Origin: Enterococcus crotali
GTDB taxonomy: Bacteria; Bacillota; Bacilli; Lactobacillales; Enterococcaceae
Direction: 5' to 3'
Length of the DNA stretch: 64,000 nt
Assembly (NCBI RefSeq): GCF_000633635.1
Contig: NZ_AYPQ01000001.1
Coordinates: forward strand, 310,424-374,423
Every line of letters begins with the position of its first letter. The stretch's first letter is position 1. A program made the translations under genes and the position numbers. Below the pieces are notes generated by a model. The model ran no database searches, was not told where the DNA came from, and worked only from the letters and a program-made list of their open reading frames with translations. Below, piece by piece: positions 29,987 to 42,081 of the stretch.

Positions 29987-30322
29987 ATGTACATTGTAAC
30001 CAATACAATTCAAACAGAGACAGCACAGTCACAAAGAATCATTCAGCAGTTTACAGCTGGACATACCAAAGAAAGCATGGAAAAAGTTGATGGTTTTTTA
30101 AACTTTCAATTGATGCAACGGACATTGCCAGATGATCCAGAAGTAACAGAGCTGGTAGTTTTAAGTCGTTGGACTTCAAAAGAGCATCAAAAAAATTGGG
30201 TAAAAAGTCAATCATTTAAGCAGATGCATCAAAGAAAAGAGCCTAAGGAGGACACTGCTAAAGAAAAGAAACGTCCAGGCATCATTTCAAGCACAATCGC
30301 TGAATACGAAGTATTAACATAA
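29987..30322 (+). CDS. IsdG/HmoA-like antibiotic-biosynthesis-monooxygenase domain protein
   Basis: 111 residues, ATG behind GGAGGG. The ABM fold signature is seen: N-terminal strand MYIVTNTIQ, the helix VDGFLNFQLMQR, the strand ELVVLSRWTSKEHQKNWVKSQSFKQMH, and a last strand ISSTIAEYEVL. Haem-degrading monooxygenases of the IsdG/HmoA group have N, W and H in the corresponding places (N6 or so, W in SRWTSKEHQKNW, and the H of QMHQ). As last gene of a Fur-boxed transporter operon it probably opens imported haem to release iron. Confidence 0.72.
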   Translation: MYIVTNTIQTETAQSQRIIQQFTAGHTKESMEKVDGFLNFQLMQRTLPDDPEVTELVVLSRWTSKEHQKNWVKSQSFKQMHQRKEPKEDTAKEKKRPGIISSTIAEYEVLT

Positions 30323-30363
30323 AAAAAGTTTCTGCTTGCTAAAATGCGGCAGAAACTTTTTTT
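30321..30363. terminator. Terminator of the ECF/IsdG operon
   Basis: AAAAAAAGTTTCTGC pairs with GCAGAAACTTTTTTT; symmetric A and T runs allow it to work in both directions. Confidence 0.9.
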
Positions 30364-30461
30364 ATGTTTATTTACTATTTAATCTATATAGTAGTAATGA
30401 TATGTATAGGATTTAAATAAACAAAATAAAAGAATTTTTGATGTTAAAGTAAGTTGAAAAC

Positions 30462-30486
30462 TTCCTCATTGTTGTACAAAGAAGAA
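30462..30486 (+). repeat. Left 25-bp inverted repeat flanking recombinase 1
   Basis: A perfect 25-bp match in inverted orientation to 32013-32037. It contains the palindromic core TTGTACAA at 30472-30479. The pair encloses the recombinase gene (about 1.58 kb from outer edge to outer edge), as expected for crossover sites of an invertible segment. Confidence 0.85.
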
Positions 30487-30514
30487 GATTGAATGCTTTT
30501 ACTAACTAAGTAAC

Positions 30515-30543
30515 AGTCTAATTGGAAAAACATAAGAAGTCAA
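30515..30543 (-). promoter_or_regulatory. Outward-facing promoter inside the left repeat
   Basis: On the minus strand, TTGACT (30538-30543), a 17-bp spacer and TAGACT (30515-30520). It now points left, towards the end of the IsdG operon. After inversion it would read rightward across the repeat into the regulator at 32174 and the WxL locus. Confidence 0.45.
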
Positions 30544-30726
30544 CAGTGTTTTATTGCGTTATTTCTCATTTTTTTTTTATAAAATGAAAAAAATTGAGAA
30601 TTTCCTTTAAAAAAGGAATTTTCTTAATTAAATCTCTTCTTTTTCACAGCAAAATCTATTTTTATAGGAGCTTTTTATTAGCCGTCAAAAAAATGGTCAA
30701 ATAAATAGATAAAGGAATGAGATAAA

Positions 30727-31860
30727 ATGTCTAAAAAAGGAGAAAATATTTACAAACGAAAAGATGGTAGATGGGAAGGGCGTTATATAAAAGGAAGAAA
30801 TAAAAGTGGTTCAATAAAATATGGCTATGTATACGCTAAGAAATACAGTGAGGTTAAAACAAAATTGATTGTTGTAAAAGCGGATCTAATTGGCAGCGGA
30901 AACAAAGAATATAAGGAAGAATTATTGGAAGTTTGGTGTGATTTTTGGTTGGTGAATGAAGTAAAAAGTCTAGTAAAAAGTTCTACGTATGCGCAATATC
31001 ATTGGTTGTGTAATAACTACATAGTTCCCTTTTTTAAGAATAACTATCTACATAATATAACAGACGATCATATTCAGAATTTTATTATTACACTGGAGAA
31101 ACGAAACTTGGCTTCTGGAACTATCAGGAATATTTTCGCCTTGTTAAGGAAAATGCTGATTGCTGCAGAGAATAACCAGCTTCTGTTTGGAAGTCCCTAT
31201 AAAAAAATTCGATTACCACATAAAAAAAATAATTCTGTTGTTGCCTTATCAAGAACAGATCAACGAAAGCTAGAGGCTATTGCCTTCAATGAAAAAGGTT
31301 GTTCCCCAATCATTTTATCGCTGTACCTTGGGCTTAGAATTGGAGAAATCAGTGGACTAAAATGGTCGGATATTGATTTTAATAAAGAAGTTGTTTATAT
31401 AAAACGAACAGTTTCACGAGTAAAAACATCTTTTGAAGCAGGAAATAAAACAAATATAATTATAAGTACTCCGAAGACCGAGCAATCTTCTAGAGTAGTA
31501 CCATTGTCAAAAAAAATAGTATATTACTTGTTAAATAAGAAAGAATATAGCCAAAGCGACTATGTTGTGACTTGTAAAAATAACTTAGCGGAGCCCAGAG
31601 TGATTCGCTATCGCTTCAAAAGTGCTATTAAGAAAGCAGCGATTTCTGATACGCACTTCCACATTCTTCGCCATACTTTCGCAACGAGATGTATTGAGAT
31701 GGGAACGGATATAACTAGTTTAAGTAAGTTGTTAGGACATACATCAGTTAAAATGACATTAGATATTTATACAGATTCGATGCTAGAAAGTCGAAAAGAA
31801 ATTGTTCAAAGGTTAGACCAATTAATGCTGGATGAATTTGAAACTATATCAGTGAGCTAA
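30727..31860 (+). CDS. Tn916-type tyrosine recombinase 1
   Basis: 377 residues, ATG behind AAAGGAATGAG. N-terminal arm-binding domain (KGENIYKRKDGRWEGRYI, an AP2/Tn916-Int-like beta domain), SAM-like core-binding domain (about 65-165), and a catalytic domain with Arg204 (GLRIGE), His312-x-x-Arg315 (HILRHTF), LGHTS and the nucleophile Tyr348. All catalytic residues are present. It is flanked by perfect inverted repeats, has no excisionase or other mobile-element genes beside it, and has a close paralogue at 40960-42081. Both bracket the WxL locus. A DNA-inversion role fits better than integration. Confidence 0.9.
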   Translation: MSKKGENIYKRKDGRWEGRYIKGRNKSGSIKYGYVYAKKYSEVKTKLIVVKADLIGSGNKEYKEELLEVWCDFWLVNEVKSLVKSSTYAQYHWLCNNYIVPFFKNNYLHNITDDHIQNFIITLEKRNLASGTIRNIFALLRKMLIAAENNQLLFGSPYKKIRLPHKKNNSVVALSRTDQRKLEAIAFNEKGCSPIILSLYLGLRIGEISGLKWSDIDFNKEVVYIKRTVSRVKTSFEAGNKTNIIISTPKTEQSSRVVPLSKKIVYYLLNKKEYSQSDYVVTCKNNLAEPRVIRYRFKSAIKKAAISDTHFHILRHTFATRCIEMGTDITSLSKLLGHTSVKMTLDIYTDSMLESRKEIVQRLDQLMLDEFETISVS

Positions 31861-31872
31861 GAATTATTTTTT

Positions 31873-31920
31873 TGACTAGTACCAACGCCATAACTTCAAA
31901 AGTTATGCGTTGGTACTTTT
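31873..31920 (+). terminator. Terminator of recombinase 1
   Basis: AGTACCAACGC(C)ATAAC pairs with GTTATGCGTTGGTACT, a strong stem followed by TTTATA. It insulates the downstream regulator from recombinase transcription in this orientation. Confidence 0.85.
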
Positions 31921-32012
31921 ATATTACATTCATTCTATTAAAAAATTTTACGCCGTCATTGAACCGTCAACTACTATTTTTATGCTAGTAAAAACAATGC
32001 TTACAGGACTTT

Positions 32013-32037
32013 TTCTTCTTTGTACAACAATGAGGAA
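32013..32037 (-). repeat. Right 25-bp inverted repeat flanking recombinase 1
   Basis: The exact inverse copy of 30462-30486, with the same TTGTACAA core (32020-32027). It lies 136 bp upstream of the orphan regulator gene. Confidence 0.85.
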
Positions 32038-32173: not shown

Positions 32174-32890
32174 ATGTATAATATCGGCGTTGCTTCATTT
32201 TCAGGGGCACTTTCTAACGATTACTTAGATAAAATCAATGAAATTGGGCAGATAAAATTAATACACGAAGATAATATCCAGCAAGTCAACCAAGAAATAG
32301 ACTGTGTCATTATTCCAGATAATAGCAGCGATGACAATACAATGAGTTTGACTTTGAAAAATATCATAGAAATTAAAGCTGTAACGAATAAATTAGTCTG
32401 GGTCTTAACAAATGAGATGAATAGCATTAAAAATATAGTTTTTTTGAAATTAGGTGTAGATGGTATTTTCCCTATAAATGATTTCCCAGAAGAATTTTTA
32501 TTAGTAATAAAGAATGCATTACATCGTCAACAAAGTGATCGTCCTCATCCTAGCCAACAAGATATACACACAATTTGGGAACAAGAAGATAATCAATTAG
32601 GTTCTCATAAAATTGAACTTTACCCTAGCAATTTAAGTGTGGCTATCAATGGACACAAAGAAGTAAGCCTAACGAGACTTGAGTATCGGGCTTTTGAAAT
32701 TTTATACAAAAAAAGAAATAAAGCCGTAACATATAAGGAAATCTATGAGTTTGTCTGGAAGTCAGAATTAGATAAAAAGCAATATCGCGTTGCCAACATC
32801 ATCTTTCATTTGAGAAAAAAAATAGAAGCGAGCTCAGAGGATGCTAACATCATAAAAACAGTTCGTTCAGTAGGTTACCGTCTCAGTTAG
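32174..32890 (+). CDS. Orphan OmpR-type winged-helix regulator with degenerate receiver
   Basis: 238 residues, ATG behind GAAAGGA. The C-terminal 85 residues are a classical OmpR/PhoB winged helix (LTRLEYRAFEILYKKRNKAVTYKEIYEFVW... VANIIFHLRKKIE... IIKTVRSVGYRLS). The N-terminal 115 residues have receiver-like strand order (DCVIIPDNSS, KLVWVLTN, KLGVDGIFPINDFPEE) but the acidic pocket and the phosphorylation site are not convincing, and no histidine kinase gene is near. It is the only regulator of the WxL locus in this window and likely controls it; its activity may depend on expression level. Confidence 0.8.
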   Translation: MYNIGVASFSGALSNDYLDKINEIGQIKLIHEDNIQQVNQEIDCVIIPDNSSDDNTMSLTLKNIIEIKAVTNKLVWVLTNEMNSIKNIVFLKLGVDGIFPINDFPEEFLLVIKNALHRQQSDRPHPSQQDIHTIWEQEDNQLGSHKIELYPSNLSVAINGHKEVSLTRLEYRAFEILYKKRNKAVTYKEIYEFVWKSELDKKQYRVANIIFHLRKKIEASSEDANIIKTVRSVGYRLS

Positions 32891-32997: not shown

Positions 32998-35417
32998 ATG
33001 AAAATAGGGAAGAAAGTATTCACTTTCGGTGCAATTGGAATATTACTGGTATTTGGCAGTCTCTTTTTTATGAATCAGTCTTCAATAAAAGCTTCTGAAA
33101 CACCAACTAGTAACATTCGTTTGGAACAAACAGAAAAACAAATTCAAGAATCTTTAGATAATGAAGTATATTTTTCCTTAAACGTAAAATCTACAAAAAA
33201 AGATCAATTGATTTTACTAGAATACTCGGATGAAGTTACTTTTGATAAAGAGAAAATTCTTGAGATGAACAAAGAAAAAATCTCCCTTGTTCAAATCGAT
33301 GATGAGAAAAATCAGCTAGAATTAACTCTTAACCAAGAGTCAAAACAAGCCGTGCTATACTTTCAAGCAATGACTAGTCCAAACGTTAAACAGGTCATTC
33401 AAGCCTCATCAGAACAAGAGCGCTCAAATGAATTAATCATAGGAAAAGAAGACATAAAATCTGTTGAATCCTCCTCAGTCCGGCCAGATGAAAACTTGCA
33501 AGCTCGTGCCAGTCTAGCAACACCTTATGCAGAGGAATGGACGGAGATATTCACGGCGGAAGAAGCTTCAATAATAGCGGGTGAAGGAAAAGAGTTACGC
33601 TATGGCTTTGGCCCAACAGACGCAATCGGCAAGACAAGTATTTCTGGTAATAAACAAAAGCAATTTGCTATTCCTAATGTAACATTTATGGATAACGATA
33701 AACGAGTTCAGCATATTTACCATACTCAAAATCCTATGAGTAAACCAGAAGATGCAGGACAATCATTATGGACAAGTTACGGTTTGATTTATGCTTTCGG
33801 TAGTAATACAAGTCCTAGCATATTTAATACAGGGAGCCATGTTACTAGTGAAGGTTATAAATACTACAAACGTATCTTACCAAATGACATGACCGTGTAT
33901 AAACTAGTTTATAACACAGAATTTAGCACCAAAAAATTACGGGTAGAAATTTTAATGACTGGTAAGACAACGGGGACTGTAAATGTTGAATACACGGTGA
34001 CAAATATCGGCACAGAACGTGAAGCCAATTTCATTGTTGGTTCGATGATTGATACTGAGTTGAATAAGAATGATAAAGTGCCAATTTATGCGATTGGAGA
34101 TAATAAAGGTGTGTATATCCAAGATGCTGGAGAAAATGGCTACAAACTTCAGTACTTATTTTCAGGTGGACCAGATTACGTACAAAACTGGACCGGAAAA
34201 CACTGGATTCAAGGGACAAATACACAGCCTAGAGATTACTTCTTAAGTCAGTTTTTTAATTATGATGATTCAGGTTTTACAACCTTAGATTCACATGGTT
34301 ATGAAGCAGAAAATTATCCAGCAGATCAGTTGGTTTATGTAACGTCTGATATTAGAAAGATGGATACTGCCATCTTTATGAAAAATCAACCAACATCACT
34401 TGGAATCGATGAAAGCACCAAAATGACTTACGATGTAACTATCGGTCTTCCTGGAAATCCACCAGAAGTTTTTATCGATCAAGCTGATCAAGAGCTGATC
34501 CAAGGAAATGATTTTGAGGTTACAGGACAATGGCGGGATTCCGAGAGTCCTCTTGTAGATCTATATTACACGCTTAACGATGGGACAGCAGTAAAATTTG
34601 GAGATAAAGTTCCCAATGATATGACTAATCCTGGTAAAAAAATCAATTGGTCGTTCACGTTACCAAAATCTGCTTTGAGCCTTGGTAAACAAGTAATCAA
34701 AGTTTATGCCGTAGATAGTGAGGGACATACTTCAGAAGAGAAAGTTCTAAACTTGACAATCAAAGCAGGGGAAGCTGATTTAACTGTTCATTTTATTGAT
34801 GAAGAAAACAATGTGATTCATCCAAAAATTGTCCTAACGAGAAAAGTTGGTAGTAAAGTTGATTTGACAAAAGAAGCAGATGTGCTGAAAGCCGTGAATG
34901 ATCAACTAGAAAAAAAATATGAGATTCTTAGCTCACCAGTACCAGAGAATGCAATTGAGATTGTTGAAGGCGGTCGAGAGGTGACGTATCAATTAAAGGG
35001 CGAATTGTATTAGTTTCCGCCCCCACTGAAATTGATTTTGGAACGCAAATCGTTAAGGCTGAGGAAAGTGTTATAGAAGAACCTGTTCGAATTGATGGTG
35101 CCTTAGTCATTCAAGATAGTAGAGCGACAAAAAAACCTTGGAAGCTACAAGCACGTATGAAACAAGAATTGACAAATAGTAATCAAGAAATTGTAACGAA
35201 TGCTGTTCGCTATATATACAGCGGCAATGAAGTTACATTGAATGCTGGAATGCAAGATGTTGCTGTAGGTACAAATAAGGATGGAGCACCTAATAAAGTG
35301 AGTGACAAGTGGTCTGCTTCAGGAGATGGCTTCAAATTAAAAACAGAAGTTGGTGCTGTCAAAGAATCTGGTATCTATGTAGGAATTATAGAATGGGAAT
35401 TACTTGAAGGACCATAA
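32998..35417 (+). pseudogene. Large WxL-domain surface protein, frameshifted
   Basis: The ATG follows AAAGGAG. The first frame (to 35013) has a signal peptide, a large beta-rich region with lectin-like character and a MucBP-like stretch at its end (ADLTVHFIDEENNVIHPKIVL). The frame is lost at the G run 34998-35000; with one more G it continues as GRIVLVSAPTEIDFGTQIV... to KKPWKLQARM (first WxL motif) and GIIEWELLEGP (second), a complete WxL domain ending at 35417. Restored length is about 806 residues. The WxL domain binds peptidoglycan, so a true break would release the protein. Probably a sequencing deletion. Confidence 0.85.
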
Positions 35418-35433: not shown

Positions 35434-35790
35434 ATGAATAGAAAAAAAATACGACTCAGCATTCTGACCATCTCTATTTTAGGTCTCATGATTTTTTGGA
35501 AGCCGGTGGTGATTTATGCCGCTGATGGTGGTCAAGTTGGCCATGAAGCGGTGATTGAATTTTATCTAGAGGATGAAAAAAAAGAACCACCGACAAGTAC
35601 TTCAGATTCATTAAGTGATTTAAAAATTTCTGAAGAACCAAAACAAAGTAAGCCGATCGGGCGATTTCCACAAACTGGAGAAATCGTAAAAAAATCACTG
35701 ATGCTTAGTGGCATAGTGCTTGCTTTATCAGCGCTTTATGTCTATGTGAAAAAGCACAAAAAAGAACACGAAGGAGAGACCAAACCTTGA
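35434..35790 (+). CDS. Small LPXTG-type (FPQTGE) wall-anchored protein
   Basis: 118 residues from the ATG at 35434 (AAAAGGAGAGGG in front). Signal peptide, a short acidic region (QVGHEAVIEFYLEDEKKEP), Ser/Thr linker, sortase motif FPQTGE at about residue 78, membrane helix and a basic tail. Small LPXTG proteins of this shape are regular members of WxL (csc-type) clusters. Its last bases overlap the next gene. Confidence 0.88.
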   Translation: MNRKKIRLSILTISILGLMIFWKPVVIYAADGGQVGHEAVIEFYLEDEKKEPPTSTSDSLSDLKISEEPKQSKPIGRFPQTGEIVKKSLMLSGIVLALSALYVYVKKHKKEHEGETKP

Positions 35791-36578
35791 AAAAGATAAT
35801 GACATTCACTTTTTGTTTCTCCGTCCTTCTTTTGCTCACTCCTAAGACTAATGTTCAGGCTCAGTCTGCTACAAATGAAGGAACGATTGGTTTTGATGCA
35901 GCGCTAATCCCGCCGCAAGTCGTGGATCCAGAAAAACCAGTGAAGCCAGTTGATCCAGGTCCTAGCCCATCTACAGAAGGATTCTTGCGAATTGATTTTG
36001 TACCTAGATTAGACTTTGGACGAAATCGATTATCTAAAGAAGATCAATTTTATCAGGCTAGAGCACAATTGTTTCATGACGATACAGGAGCAAGAGGCAA
36101 TTTTGTTCAAGTGACAGATAGCCGTTCTACCGGAGCAGGCTGGACGTTACAAGTTCGTCAAGAAACAAACTTCATGATCCCAAACAACGAAGCATCGGAA
36201 CTAAAAGGCTCGTATATTTCTTTGGATAAATCGTGGACAAACTCTTCGATGGATAAAAAATACGCGCCATCATTAGTTAATGATGTGATCAAAATCGATA
36301 AAATGCAAACAACTTATGATTTAGCTAAAGCTGATAAAGGAAAGGGTCAAGGCATTTGGAGTGTAGAATTTGGTGCTTCTGCTGAAAATGAGAATGATTT
36401 AGATTCAACACTCACACCACTTGTTGATGAAACAGGTCAACAAGTTCTTGATCCTAGCTTTGAAAATAAGCAAATATATGAAAACAATGCAGTAACATTT
36501 TTTGTTCCAGGCTCACCTGATCGAAAACCTGGAAAATACCAAACGGTGCTGACTTGGATATTATCCGAGTTACCATAA
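35787..36578 (+). CDS. WxL-domain surface protein
   Basis: 263 residues. TTG start overlapping the previous stop, with AAGGAGAG about nine bases upstream. Signal peptide (about 25 residues), a Pro-rich linker (DPEKPVKPVDPGPSP), then the WxL domain with LDFG, AGWTLQVRQE (first motif) and YQTVLTWILSELP (second motif) at the very end. It binds the cell wall non-covalently through peptidoglycan, and is expected to join a complex with the DUF916 and LPXTG proteins of the locus. Confidence 0.92.
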   Translation: MKKIMTFTFCFSVLLLLTPKTNVQAQSATNEGTIGFDAALIPPQVVDPEKPVKPVDPGPSPSTEGFLRIDFVPRLDFGRNRLSKEDQFYQARAQLFHDDTGARGNFVQVTDSRSTGAGWTLQVRQETNFMIPNNEASELKGSYISLDKSWTNSSMDKKYAPSLVNDVIKIDKMQTTYDLAKADKGKGQGIWSVEFGASAENENDLDSTLTPLVDETGQQVLDPSFENKQIYENNAVTFFVPGSPDRKPGKYQTVLTWILSELP

Positions 36579-36608: not shown

Positions 36609-37424
36609 ATGAAAAAAAGAACACTATGTTCTATCGCGTTATTAGCTGCACTAGGTGCTAATGTATTACTACCAGCTGCTGCGAGTGCGGACAATGGAAA
36701 AGCAACTCAAGCAAATGGACAAGGAACAATCGATTATGTAGAAGATTCTGGTAAAAATACAGATAAGGATCCAGAAAAACCTACAGATCCAGTAACACCA
36801 CCATACACACCTAATCCAGATGATGGACCATTGAAAATCGATGGTGTTTCAGACATGAACTTCAAACAACAAAGTGCTGTCTTAACTGACGAAAACTATT
36901 TTGCTGAGCAAGTAGAAATTGATAAAAATGGAACAAAAGAAAAACGTGGTGTTTATTTACAATTAACAGATAAACGTATTGATAGCCGTGGAAAATGGGC
37001 TTTAAGAGCATCAATGACTCAACAATTTAAAGCTGCGTCTGGAAATGTGTTAAATAATGCTACAATTAGCTTTAAAAATCCAATCGTTGAAACAGAAACA
37101 GATGCAGCAGTTAGTCCTCATGCAGTTTTAGCATCAACTGGTTCAGTATTTGAATTATTAGAAACTGGCAATGTCGTTGACGTTTTAGAAACGAAAGATG
37201 CTAAAGACGGTTTTGGTACGTATACTGTCGCTTTTGGTAATACAGTTGAATATAATACTAATACTGGAAAAGGAACAGCTGAAGATTCAACAGGTGTACC
37301 AAATGCAACCAATAAAAACAAAATTGAAAATGGTTCAGTATCATTATTCGTTCCAGGTAAAACTGTGAAAACCAAAGAAGCACATACTGCAACAGTTTTG
37401 TGGGAAATTGCAGAAGTACTTTAA
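36609..37424 (+). CDS. WxL-domain surface protein
   Basis: 271 residues, ATG behind AGGGGG. Signal peptide ending near AAASA, an acidic Pro-rich linker (DPEKPTDPVTPPYTPNPDDGP), then a WxL domain with GKWALRAS and a C-terminal ATVLWEIAEVL. It is the commonest architecture of enterococcal WxL proteins. Codon use looks more biased than in its neighbours, suggesting high expression. Confidence 0.92.
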   Translation: MKKRTLCSIALLAALGANVLLPAAASADNGKATQANGQGTIDYVEDSGKNTDKDPEKPTDPVTPPYTPNPDDGPLKIDGVSDMNFKQQSAVLTDENYFAEQVEIDKNGTKEKRGVYLQLTDKRIDSRGKWALRASMTQQFKAASGNVLNNATISFKNPIVETETDAAVSPHAVLASTGSVFELLETGNVVDVLETKDAKDGFGTYTVAFGNTVEYNTNTGKGTAEDSTGVPNATNKNKIENGSVSLFVPGKTVKTKEAHTATVLWEIAEVL

Positions 37425-37537: not shown

Positions 37538-38605
37538 ATGAAAAAATTTTTTCAGCAGTTAACTATTACCTTCTTTTTAATCATTGCTATTTCCTTTGTT
37601 CATACTCAAATAAGTGAGGCTTCCTCAGATCCTTCAGGAGCAGTTGGCTTTTTATATAAAAGCAACCATCCGGAAAATCAAATCGACGAGTCTGGTTATT
37701 TTAATTTGAAAATGACACCCGGACAAAAGCAGAAAGTATCAATCACATTATCAAACCTTAGTAAAGAAGAAGTCACTGTCAATGTAGGATTGAATGGTGC
37801 TAGAACCAACTCTAATGGGGTTTTAGAATATGGAAAAACAAAACTTGATAAAGATACTTCAATGAAATTTGATTTTACTGATATTGTAAAAGCGCCTAAA
37901 ACAGTCACACTTCCTCCAGAATCAGATAAGGATCTAGAGTTAGAGATCAATATGCCGGAAACAAGTTATGACGGTATTATTTTAGGGGGAATCCAGCTTC
38001 AAAAGGCGACAAAGGAAAACGAAAAGAAAGAAAATACAGGAACAACAATTATTAACGAATACGCCTATACGATTGCAATGTTGCTTAGAGAAAACGATAC
38101 AAACGTTGAACCTAAAATGGGCTATCTTAAAACATATGGAACACAGCCTAATGGACGGAATACAATAGTTGTAGATTTAGCCAATCAAGCAGCTAATTTA
38201 TTGGAAGACTTGACTGTGGAAGTTCAAATCATGCCTGAGAAAAACGATGAAGTACTGTATGAATCGAAAAAAACAAAAATGAGAATGGCTCCAAACTCGG
38301 TTTTAAACTATCCAGTCAGCATGGAAGGTCAAGCGATGGTTCCAGGGAAATATCGGGCGCATGTTAAAGCTGCTTCAGCAGATAAAAACTGGGAATGGAC
38401 CGAAACGTTTGAAATTACCAAAGAAGAAGCAGATAAGTTTAACCGTGAAGATATTGGTCTCGATCAAGAGCGCGGAATTGATTTCAAATTAGTCGGTATG
38501 ATCATAGGAGGCGTCATAGGCCTTATCTTGATTATTTTCTTAGTCATTCGCTTTGCCGCAAATAAAAAGACCAAGAAAAAGAAACGCCCCTCTAAAAAAA
38601 GATAG
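37538..38605 (+). CDS. DUF916 / DUF3324 cell-surface protein
   Basis: 355 residues from the ATG at 37538. The SD GAGAGG is about 15 bases away, rather far; an in-frame TTG at 37505 is less likely. Signal peptide, then DUF916 (FLYKSNHPENQ...GYFNLKMTPGQKQKVSITLSNLS, two Ig-like lobes), DUF3324 region and a C-terminal membrane helix with a very basic tail. These proteins bind peptidoglycan and WxL partners and are obligatory members of WxL clusters. Confidence 0.92.
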   Translation: MKKFFQQLTITFFLIIAISFVHTQISEASSDPSGAVGFLYKSNHPENQIDESGYFNLKMTPGQKQKVSITLSNLSKEEVTVNVGLNGARTNSNGVLEYGKTKLDKDTSMKFDFTDIVKAPKTVTLPPESDKDLELEINMPETSYDGIILGGIQLQKATKENEKKENTGTTIINEYAYTIAMLLRENDTNVEPKMGYLKTYGTQPNGRNTIVVDLANQAANLLEDLTVEVQIMPEKNDEVLYESKKTKMRMAPNSVLNYPVSMEGQAMVPGKYRAHVKAASADKNWEWTETFEITKEEADKFNREDIGLDQERGIDFKLVGMIIGGVIGLILIIFLVIRFAANKKTKKKKRPSKKR

Positions 38606-39300: not shown

Positions 39301-40062
39301 ATGTTTATGGCAAACACAGGGCATTCATCAAATAACAAAACTAAGTTACAAACGCCTTCAAATAAAAGAGCTCGGAAAAAGCGCCTAAAGAACAAACATA
39401 AGACTCCAGTTATACAAAAGCAACATGAAGCAACTAAAAGGAAAAAACGGTCAAATCAAAGACCCAATAAAAAGAGAAATTCGATTTATTTAAAACGAAA
39501 AAGACAGCAAAAGTTTGTTCGATTTAGTCTTGAAATCAGTAGTTCAATCTTGATTGCGTGTATTTTTATCTGGGTGCTTTCCTTATTTTTATTTACCTTT
39601 TCAAAAGTTGATGGTTATAGCATGCTGCCAACACTTTCTGAAAATGATTTTGTGTACATCAATCGTCGAGCGAGAATCAAACGCTTTAGCATAGCTTATT
39701 TTAAGACACCTGATCAACACGGAAAAGCAATGCGTCGCATCATCGGATTACCTGGTGAAACTGTGGAGTACAAGGGCGATAAGTTGTTTGTGAACAATGA
39801 AGAAGTAATGGAGTCGTTTATTGACAATCAAGAAGTAAAAAAAATGCAAAGTATGGATACTTTTTTTACAGAAGATTTTGATACAAAAACGATCAAAAAT
39901 GGTCAGCTAATAATTCCCAAAGATTCATACTTAGTATTGGGGGACAATAGACCCTATTCTACCGACAGTCGATATTATGGTTTCGTTCCGAAAGAAAATA
40001 TTATCGGCGTTGTCAAAGTGAGAATTTTACCCATACACAAGATAGAAAATTTAAATCGATAA
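39301..40062 (+). CDS. Signal peptidase I-like protein with basic N-terminal extension
   Basis: 253 residues. An unusual 70-residue Lys/Arg-rich cytoplasmic leader precedes one membrane helix (about 75-100). The S26 domain follows: catalytic Ser107 in DGYSMLPTL, then AMRRIIGLPGE and LGDNRPYSTDSRYYGFV. In typical SPases the residue two before IIGLPG is the catalytic Lys (KRIIGLPG); here it is Arg145, with Lys142 three residues earlier. The enzyme may be altered or inactive, or use another Lys. The ATG at 39307 is better spaced from the SD (CGGAG) than that at 39301. Probably dedicated to the WxL proteins. Confidence 0.82.
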   Translation: MFMANTGHSSNNKTKLQTPSNKRARKKRLKNKHKTPVIQKQHEATKRKKRSNQRPNKKRNSIYLKRKRQQKFVRFSLEISSSILIACIFIWVLSLFLFTFSKVDGYSMLPTLSENDFVYINRRARIKRFSIAYFKTPDQHGKAMRRIIGLPGETVEYKGDKLFVNNEEVMESFIDNQEVKKMQSMDTFFTEDFDTKTIKNGQLIIPKDSYLVLGDNRPYSTDSRYYGFVPKENIIGVVKVRILPIHKIENLNR

Positions 40063-40959: not shown

Positions 40960-42081
40960 ATGACTAGAAAAGGTGAAAATATTTATAAACGGAAAGATGG
41001 TAGGTGGGAAGGCCGCTATATAAAAAAAAGAGATAGTAAAGGCAGAATTATTTATGGCTATACTTATGGAAAACGCTATATAGAAGTAAAGTCAAAATTA
41101 ATATTATTGAAAGCGCAACATTTTGAGTTAGATACTATCAAGACTTTTAATGGCGATTTACAAGAGTGGAGTGTTTATTGGTTACATCACTATAAAAAAT
41201 CTACTATAAAGCAGTCTACATTTTTTAATTATAAATGGTTGATAAACAAATACATTCTTCCTTATATAGGTGAAAAAAGGATAAGTGATCTGAAAAATGA
41301 AGAAGTTAGAAGCTATATTGAAACGATAGAAGGACTGGGATTATCACATGGAACAACGAATAATATTTTTATTTTACTTAAAAAAATTTTAGAAGAAGCA
41401 GAAAATCAAAACATAATTTCTTCTAATCCTTGTCGAAACATTAAGTTGTCCAGAAAAAAATATAGGAATAAAGTACCAGTTGCTCTGACGGTGAATGAGC
41501 AAAAGCAATTAGAATATTTTGCATTCAAAGAAAAAGGGTGCTCCGCAATTATTTTGGCCTTGTACTCAGGTCTTCGGATTGGTGAGATTAGTGGACTTAA
41601 ATGGTCAGATATTGATTTTGAGAATGGAACTATTTACGTTAATCGTACGATTTTCAGAGTAAATAGTCATAGCGAAGGTCGCAAGACGGAAGTACTGGTT
41701 GGAATTCCTAAAACAGATCAATCCTCTAGAGTTGTTCCATTAGCTGGAAACTTAAAAAACTACTTGCTTGCAAAAAAAGCACTATCAGCTTCGAGTTATG
41801 TTGTATCATGTAAAAATAAAATGACTGAACCCAGAGTGATCAGATACCGATTTAAAAAAGTTGTAGAAGCCTCAGGAATTAGAAACATCCACTTTCATTC
41901 TTTGCGCCATACATTTGCGACTCGATGTTTAGAAGAACGTGTAGATATATCCAGTTTGAGTAAGCTTTTGGGTCACACTTCAGCAAAAATGACTTTAGAT
42001 ACGTATGCAGATTCGGTACTTGAAAGTCGACAAAAAGCGATCTTTAAAATAGACAAATTAATGACTTATCAATTGGATTAA
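40960..42081 (+). CDS. Tn916-type tyrosine recombinase 2 (paralogue of recombinase 1)
   Basis: 373 residues from the ATG at 40960 (AAAGGGG in front); upstream in-frame starts lack an SD. It matches recombinase 1 throughout: RKGENIYKRKDGRWEGRYIK at the N terminus, SGLRIGEISGLKWSDIDF, FHSLRHTFATRC, LLGHTSAKMTLDTYADSVLESR. All catalytic residues are present. It lies at the far end of the WxL locus in the same orientation as recombinase 1. No excisionase, relaxase or direct-repeat ends are seen. Confidence 0.9.
   Translation: MTRKGENIYKRKDGRWEGRYIKKRDSKGRIIYGYTYGKRYIEVKSKLILLKAQHFELDTIKTFNGDLQEWSVYWLHHYKKSTIKQSTFFNYKWLINKYILPYIGEKRISDLKNEEVRSYIETIEGLGLSHGTTNNIFILLKKILEEAENQNIISSNPCRNIKLSRKKYRNKVPVALTVNEQKQLEYFAFKEKGCSAIILALYSGLRIGEISGLKWSDIDFENGTIYVNRTIFRVNSHSEGRKTEVLVGIPKTDQSSRVVPLAGNLKNYLLAKKALSASSYVVSCKNKMTEPRVIRYRFKKVVEASGIRNIHFHSLRHTFATRCLEERVDISSLSKLLGHTSAKMTLDTYADSVLESRQKAIFKIDKLMTYQLD

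Follow-up and report, generated by a model that had tools for sequence, protein, structure and literature searches.

The tyrosine recombinases FimB and FimE invert a promoter for surface structures, a task resembling the one proposed here for a DNA cassette of Enterococcus crotali. Hin of Salmonella is a serine recombinase, and its segment carries an outward promoter, as does, by candidate sequence, the enterococcal cassette. The invertible promoters of Bacteroides have a role in surface polysaccharides. According to the accessible part of PMC5903667, the gene of Hin, the flagellar phase variation enzyme, lies inside its invertible segment, again as in the cassette, while in Bacteroides at least thirteen regions are served by a single master recombinase, Mpi, the likeness being the many invertible loci per genome. 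RecV of C. difficile (cwpV, flagella) is likewise a tyrosine recombinase of a Gram-positive organism that serves surface genes (PMC5903667, accessible part), and cmrRST is a phase-variable signalling locus of the same species (PMC13367059, accessible part). Within the Lactobacillales, PsrA of Streptococcus pneumoniae is, in the accessible part of its description, a tyrosine recombinase associated with DNA inversion. Integrases of the Tn916/Tn1549 type share with the cassette enzyme an alignable catalytic domain and the combination of core and arm-type repeats.

The cassette differs from Hin in its enzyme, a Tn916-type tyrosine recombinase of the Phage_integrase family with arm-type repeats, and in its presumed target, the winged-helix regulator of a WxL operon. 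Instead of one master enzyme such as Mpi, each Enterococcus cassette brings a recombinase of its own along with a site sequence peculiar to it; in contrast to RecV, which serves more than one switch, the cassette recombinase sits inside its own segment. Models of FimB/FimE-type invertases span about 200 positions, whereas the cassette protein of 377 aa has an extra N-terminal part and stays far below the cut-off, two NCBIfam models of tyrosine-type DNA invertases matching it weakly (30.8 and 30.5 bits against cut-offs of 222 and 221). Unlike those of Tn916/Tn1549, the core sites are inverted rather than direct, and the segment holds no second ORF of at least 80 aa. PsrA acts, as far as the accessible description goes, on hsdS genes rather than on a promoter segment that contains its recombinase.

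The window, i.e. the whole stretch of 64,000 nucleotides that was analysed, contains at 30462-32037 what we regard with good confidence as an invertible promoter cassette switching the regulator of a WxL operon. The parts of the cassette and its left border are the following:

30316..30368, no strand assigned: two-way hairpin outside the left end (-29 / -26.8 kcal/mol), where transcription from the outward promoter probably ends as long as the segment is oriented as at present
30462..30486, plus strand: left inverted repeat, the presumed core site of the recombinase, with two inverted arms of ~10 bp and a short spacer between them
30515..30543, minus strand: candidate outward promoter TTGACT-N17-TAGACT, now pointing away from the regulator
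30682..30700, plus strand: left arm-type repeats (CCGTCA, GGTCAA)
30727..31860, plus strand: Tn916-type tyrosine recombinase, 377 aa, with Phage_integrase and SAM-like domains
31878..31917, plus strand: hairpin 3' of the recombinase gene (-23 kcal/mol), a probable terminator insulating the regulator
31953..31969, plus strand: right arm-type repeats (CCGTCA twice)
32013..32037, minus strand: right inverted repeat, reverse complementary to the left one without mismatch

The initial annotation, made from the sequence alone, had pointed to two exact 25-bp copies in opposite orientation, and these are indeed reverse complements at 25 of 25 positions; with mismatches allowed, the arms reach 30 bp at 93%. 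Inverted repeats thus bound both ends of the segment. In a scan for repeats of at least 16 bp, this pair was the longest exact inverted repeat of the 64-kb window, the next being 20-bp hairpins, and the repeat scan of the locus revealed no comparable direct repeat around the recombinase gene. The centre of the 25-bp repeat is the palindromic TTGTACAA, which allows more than one placement and direction of the crossover spacer. The 17-bp repeat centre occurs exactly twice, once per strand, in five of the 22 Enterococcus genomes (that of the window included); it is absent from the other 17, and a reversed-letter control gave zero as well. The earlier statement that the segment encloses the recombinase gene and nothing else is correct for ORFs of at least 80 aa, no cargo or excisionase ORF of this size being found besides the recombinase, but too narrow otherwise, as the candidate outward promoter and the CCGTCA repeats also lie inside. 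Between the promoter and the recombinase gene, an A+T-rich dyad (30563-30600) forms a hairpin of -11.1 kcal/mol (z -3.4) that is visible in five aligned copies.

The recombinase was described from the outset as catalytically complete, and an alignment of 20 sequences agrees: R204, K250, H312, R315, H338 and Y348, which we take to be the catalytic R-K-H-R-H-Y set, occupy invariant columns. The N-terminus is near-invariant in the same alignment, and no arm-binding Pfam domain was detected in the protein at E 0.01. The Int protein of 6emy/6emz, presumably that of Tn1549, can be aligned with the catalytic domain. Across recombinase clusters, no promoter was found for the recombinase gene itself (mean z -0.26). 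A second recombinase, 53% identical to the first, is encoded at 40960-42081, after the WxL locus, in the window and in four orthologous genomes. It was rejected as a partner in the switch, since in the five copies the exact cross-gene repeat does not exceed 13 bp, CCGTCA is missing nearby and no regulator lies within reach.

The surface-protein context proposed for the cassette was confirmed by domain matches, which place it beside a regulator and a WxL locus composed of the following genes:

32174..32890, plus strand: winged-helix (Trans_reg_C) regulator with a degenerate receiver-like N-terminus, the presumed target of the switch
32998..35013, plus strand: large protein with a signal-like start and a MucBP domain, the first gene after the regulator
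35434..35790, plus strand: small LPXTG protein of the EF2685/EF0750 family
35787..36578, plus strand: WxL protein
36609..37424, plus strand: WxL protein
37538..38605, plus strand: WxL-interacting protein (DUF916/DUF3324 type)
39301..40062, plus strand: signal peptidase I of the same WxL locus

This arrangement recurs in the genus. Among 41 long flanks (the window and L267-L306, L288 being truncated), 33 have the order cassette, regulator, large protein(s), small LPXTG-like protein, two WxL proteins and WxL-interacting protein. The large proteins mostly match MucBP or WxL profiles, and a ~222-aa protein and a protein of signal peptidase size often follow. Five flanks (L292, L293, L297, L298, L304) depart from this order, and two more (L278, L290) are variants of it. 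The receiver-like part of the regulator, its positions being placed on the receiver scheme by our own assumption, lacks the usual acidic pair, and the presumed phosphorylation position is D in 19 of 99 sequences; regulation by the amount of the protein rather than by its phosphorylation is therefore plausible. Some cassettes have no regulator and lie directly before large surface proteins, five of which were scanned: GA and ChW domains were found at L191 and a WxL domain at L209 and L263, L224 gave nothing over the cut-off, and a lectin match at L209 and L249 remained below it. At L191, L211, L216, L223 and L261, where the regulator is likewise missing, the protein directly downstream of the cassette has ~1095 aa and a common N-terminus.

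The family was followed through 140 homologous loci (L127-L266) from 22 Enterococcus genomes, i.e. the same-genus recombinase matches among the matches listed; matches from other genera, a mirrored copy in genome G005 and partial matches were kept apart. At 110 of these 140 loci the recombinase is enclosed by an exact inverted repeat of 14 bp or more, and a regulator homologue lies within 2.5 kb at 100 of the 110, against five of the 30 loci without a repeat, all counts being among the matches listed. These 100 loci, with both repeat and regulator, make up the set used below. The length of the best exact cross-gene repeat is clearly divided: at 165 loci tested it was 10-13 bp in 34 and at least 17 bp in 123, with 14-16 bp in just eight. 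The four orthologues (genomes G010, G002, G007 and G003), whose recombinases are 75-90% identical to that of the window, keep the inverted repeats while their outer left flanks diverge. The absence of repeats beside orthologous recombinases, which the initial annotation had named as evidence against a switch, is thus contradicted at all four, as well as at the 110 of 140 homologues (among the matches listed). The genome of the window alone has 17 recombinase matches, consisting of eleven full-length or nearly full-length ones at 41-100% identity, a single copy broken into two and four partial matches.

The presumed arm-type motif follows the same boundaries. In the 100-cassette set, CCGTCA is present in the left inner part of 95 and in the right inner part of 89, while its density just outside the cassettes is 0.00 and 0.33 per kb and that on the other strand is near zero. 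It is missing from both sides at 22 of the 30 loci without repeats, including the second recombinase of the window in each of its five copies, and present on both sides at nine of the ten repeat-bearing loci without a regulator. L244, which lies outside the 100-cassette set and has a 15-bp repeat, is devoid of CCGTCA, and its repeat is probably due to chance.

Several further related loci were noted. At L135, L151, L157, L160, L168 and other loci, recombinases related at ~43% are found without repeats, convergent to a gene of ~500 aa; at L135, the sole one of this group that was scanned, the gene codes for an Mga-type regulator. In genome G005, contig C1, the same recombinase is found twice with equal scores, near both contig ends (18931 and 3821039) and on opposite strands, which may be an assembly artefact. 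The clostridial relatives L073, L075, L077, L080 and L081 (35-38% identity) have exact inverted repeats of 15-21 bp around the recombinase, and no regulator homologue was found beside it. A megaplasmid of E. raffinosus (NZ_CP081847.1, L333) carries a cassette with an 18-bp repeat before a helix-turn-helix gene and a secA2/secY2/asp accessory Sec operon.

In the 100-cassette set, the recombinase gene points toward the regulator at 98 loci and away from it at two; flipping is therefore likely to be rare, tightly controlled or selected against in culture. Comparison of flanking proteins between loci, paralogous pairs included, gave 462 pairs of the same orientation and 12 flipped ones. One of the latter (L135-L142) joins unrelated loci and has no bearing on cassette inversion, and the remaining 11, some of which rest on the regulator alone, reduce to two loci, L161 (genome G003) and L239 (genome G017). 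L161 is flipped relative to L132, L149, L158 and L203, and L239 relative to L164 and L242, with both flanks matched. In the alignments L161-L158, L239-L164 and L239-L242, the breakpoints coincide with the repeats, the inner 1.4-1.5 kb match in reverse at 76-85% and the flanks are collinear. Hence the inverted arrangement, whose absence from every related genome was to speak against the proposed switch, does exist at two homologous loci. At one related locus of E. raffinosus megaplasmids, the sequences of three additional strains agree with that of the query strain over 96%, all on one strand, and a fifth record holds 32% of the stretch.

The suggestion that orientation be compared among relatives has thus been answered in two ways. 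The switch of the initial annotation has grown into a multi-copy family spanning the genus, with inversion at two homologous loci, but the inverted form was seen neither at the window locus nor at its four orthologues, which all share one orientation with the recombinase directed toward the regulator. This uniformity might mean that the switch family is real while the window copy is locked and no longer inverts. Locked copies do occur, as judged from the flipped L161, whose recombinase has one internal stop (that of L239 is open) and which is possibly an old inversion frozen in place because of this stop, and from the recombinase split between two frames in a paralogous cassette of the same genome (L138, G000:C1:115284-116395), possibly a locked switch although its exact 30-bp repeat pair is kept. 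The window recombinase, however, is open with all catalytic columns present, the repeats are exact at both ends and the promoter hexamers are kept in five copies, which makes a locked window copy rather doubtful. The switch family is real, and the window copy very probably belongs to it in working order and would invert in living cells.

The promoter evidence comes mainly from the comparison of cassettes. In a scan of the window alone, the candidate at 30515-30543 could not be distinguished from chance (12 hits against 10.0 in shuffles); it is, however, kept in the four orthologues, which have TTGACT-N17-TA(G/A)ACT at this position. A sigma70-like matrix was applied to eight region/strand classes, with dinucleotide shuffles as the background. 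Among these, the left inner region in its outward reading stood out with a mean z of 2.13 and 59 of 100 cassettes at p<=0.05, as opposed to 2-20% in the seven other classes; by recombinase cluster, its mean z was 2.36, with 19 of 28 clusters above 1.6. Weaker signals came from the right inner region read inward (cluster t 3.2) and the right outer region read backward (t 2.3). A significant outward promoter is lacking in 41 of the 100 cassettes, including L132, L149, L161 and L239. In the flipped L239, the sequence TTGACT-N17-TAACAT faces the regulator (p 0.08), and the flipped L161 has a degenerate promoter (p 0.15).

Terminator-like hairpins are distributed unevenly. In 45 of 100 cassettes (4.0 in shuffles) they occupy the interval from the recombinase gene to the right repeat; they are found outside the left end in 47 leftward (1.7) and 41 rightward (3.3), and they are nearly missing between the right repeat and the regulator (1 of 100; 1.3 in shuffles) and from the path of the promoter (1 of 100; 0.0). 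For the window, the assignment of its two hairpins as terminators rests on folding energy: neither the window scan nor that of the 100 cassettes made a call at 31878-31917, and the window scan called no terminator at all, the hairpin at 30316-30368 included. Since the outward promoter sits at the cassette end distal to the regulator, OFF is the probable state of the common orientation, and the terminators fit this assignment.

The opposite assignment was also considered, in which the present orientation is ON, the regulator being transcribed from a promoter of its own beyond the right repeat, and inversion lowers or alters expression, e.g. through the extra transcript of the outward promoter. 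The prevalence of one orientation (98 of 100 loci) would agree with this, and so would a -10-like element beyond the right repeat that is conserved in five aligned copies and because of which the regulator may own a weak promoter. Nevertheless, promoters are not enriched in the stretch from repeat to regulator (mean z -0.03; 0 of 28 clusters), clear enrichment is confined to the far end read outward, and terminators separate the recombinase gene from the right repeat in 45 of 100 cassettes, so that an ON state at present appears improbable.

Under the preferred reading, in which the present orientation is OFF, the recombinase would pair the two inverted core sites, its N-terminal domain bridging to the CCGTCA arm repeats inside, and the segment would turn round. 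In the present state, the cassette promoter would fire leftward into the two-way terminator, and the regulator would be shielded from recombinase read-through. In the inverted state, the -10 element would, by arithmetic, come to lie ~190 bp upstream of the start codon of the regulator and drive its transcription, and the regulator, once made, would activate the WxL operon downstream. Core and arm sites are turned round jointly, which would leave the flipped segment an equivalent substrate, so that the reaction should be reversible.

The repeat sequences vary between paralogues, and they do so together with the enzyme. Over 99 loci, one recombinase with a stop having been dropped from the 100, recombinase distance correlated with site distance (r 0.67) and with regulator distance (r 0.70), neither value being reached in 2000 permutations (0/2000), which were made with no correction for orthology. 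Within 15 clusters, site changes counted as locus pairs times columns affected both ends in concert in 533 cases, one end in 233 and the two ends discordantly in 74; the choice of sites by exact identity biases this count upward, the pairs are non-independent and the rows of L184 and L248 are badly registered. Strand exchange within a spacer common to both sites would lead to such concerted change at the two ends.

These data also bear on the idea that the cassette is the remnant of a small integrative element whose att cores became inverted by chance, its inversions being rare accidents devoid of a regulatory role. Several features would agree with it: the recombinase is of the Tn916 type with core and arm-type sites, related recombinases below 60% identity occur in phage and plasmid records (viral and phage collections gave distant ones alone, the best at 36% and 37%), and one of the two flipped cassettes, L161, has an interrupted recombinase. 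Cassettes may also come and go, as in the host genome, which has 61 WxL domain matches at E 0.001, nine of the 18 WxL operon markers over the cut-off lie within 10 kb of a cassette and nine, by position, have none, positions being compared by eye. On the other hand, a remnant would hardly be placed so constantly before a single type of regulator (100 of 110 repeat-bearing loci, among the matches listed), change its sites mostly in concert or display promoter and terminators laid out as a switch, and no cargo ORF of at least 80 aa accompanies the recombinase. We judge it highly improbable; a mobile element was set aside as the main explanation in view of the inverted ends, the lack of a second ORF of at least 80 aa and the fixed place. 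That the repeats are operators for self-regulation of the recombinase, with no inversion involved, has a negligible probability and was rejected, for although the sites are dyads to which the protein could bind (p<=0.05 in 72 of 100 when compared with letter shuffles), concerted changes of both ends predominate, as would be required for strand exchange, and two natural inversions have their breakpoints at the repeats.

On the scale of the clade, we consider it an evenly balanced proposition that Enterococcus genomes contain several independent, mutually orthogonal switches, each a domesticated Tn916-type mini-element in which the inverted core turns excision into reversible inversion, and that orphan receiver-like regulators take DNA orientation instead of phosphorylation as their input. 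To our knowledge, it has not been described how a strain selects one of its WxL loci over the others; self-contained switches, present as a set, would account for this choice by chance and bet-hedging, and, if the clade-wide orthogonality is true, many combinations of WxL surfaces per strain would follow. A literature search, in which subscription papers were thinly covered, returned no description of inversion at WxL loci or of invertible promoters in Enterococcus, and one survey, in its accessible part, gives the inversion signature once in 18 species of the class Bacilli (PMC5903667). The switch family would place programmed inversion widely in Bacilli, and it offers many naturally distinct pairs of recombinase and site.
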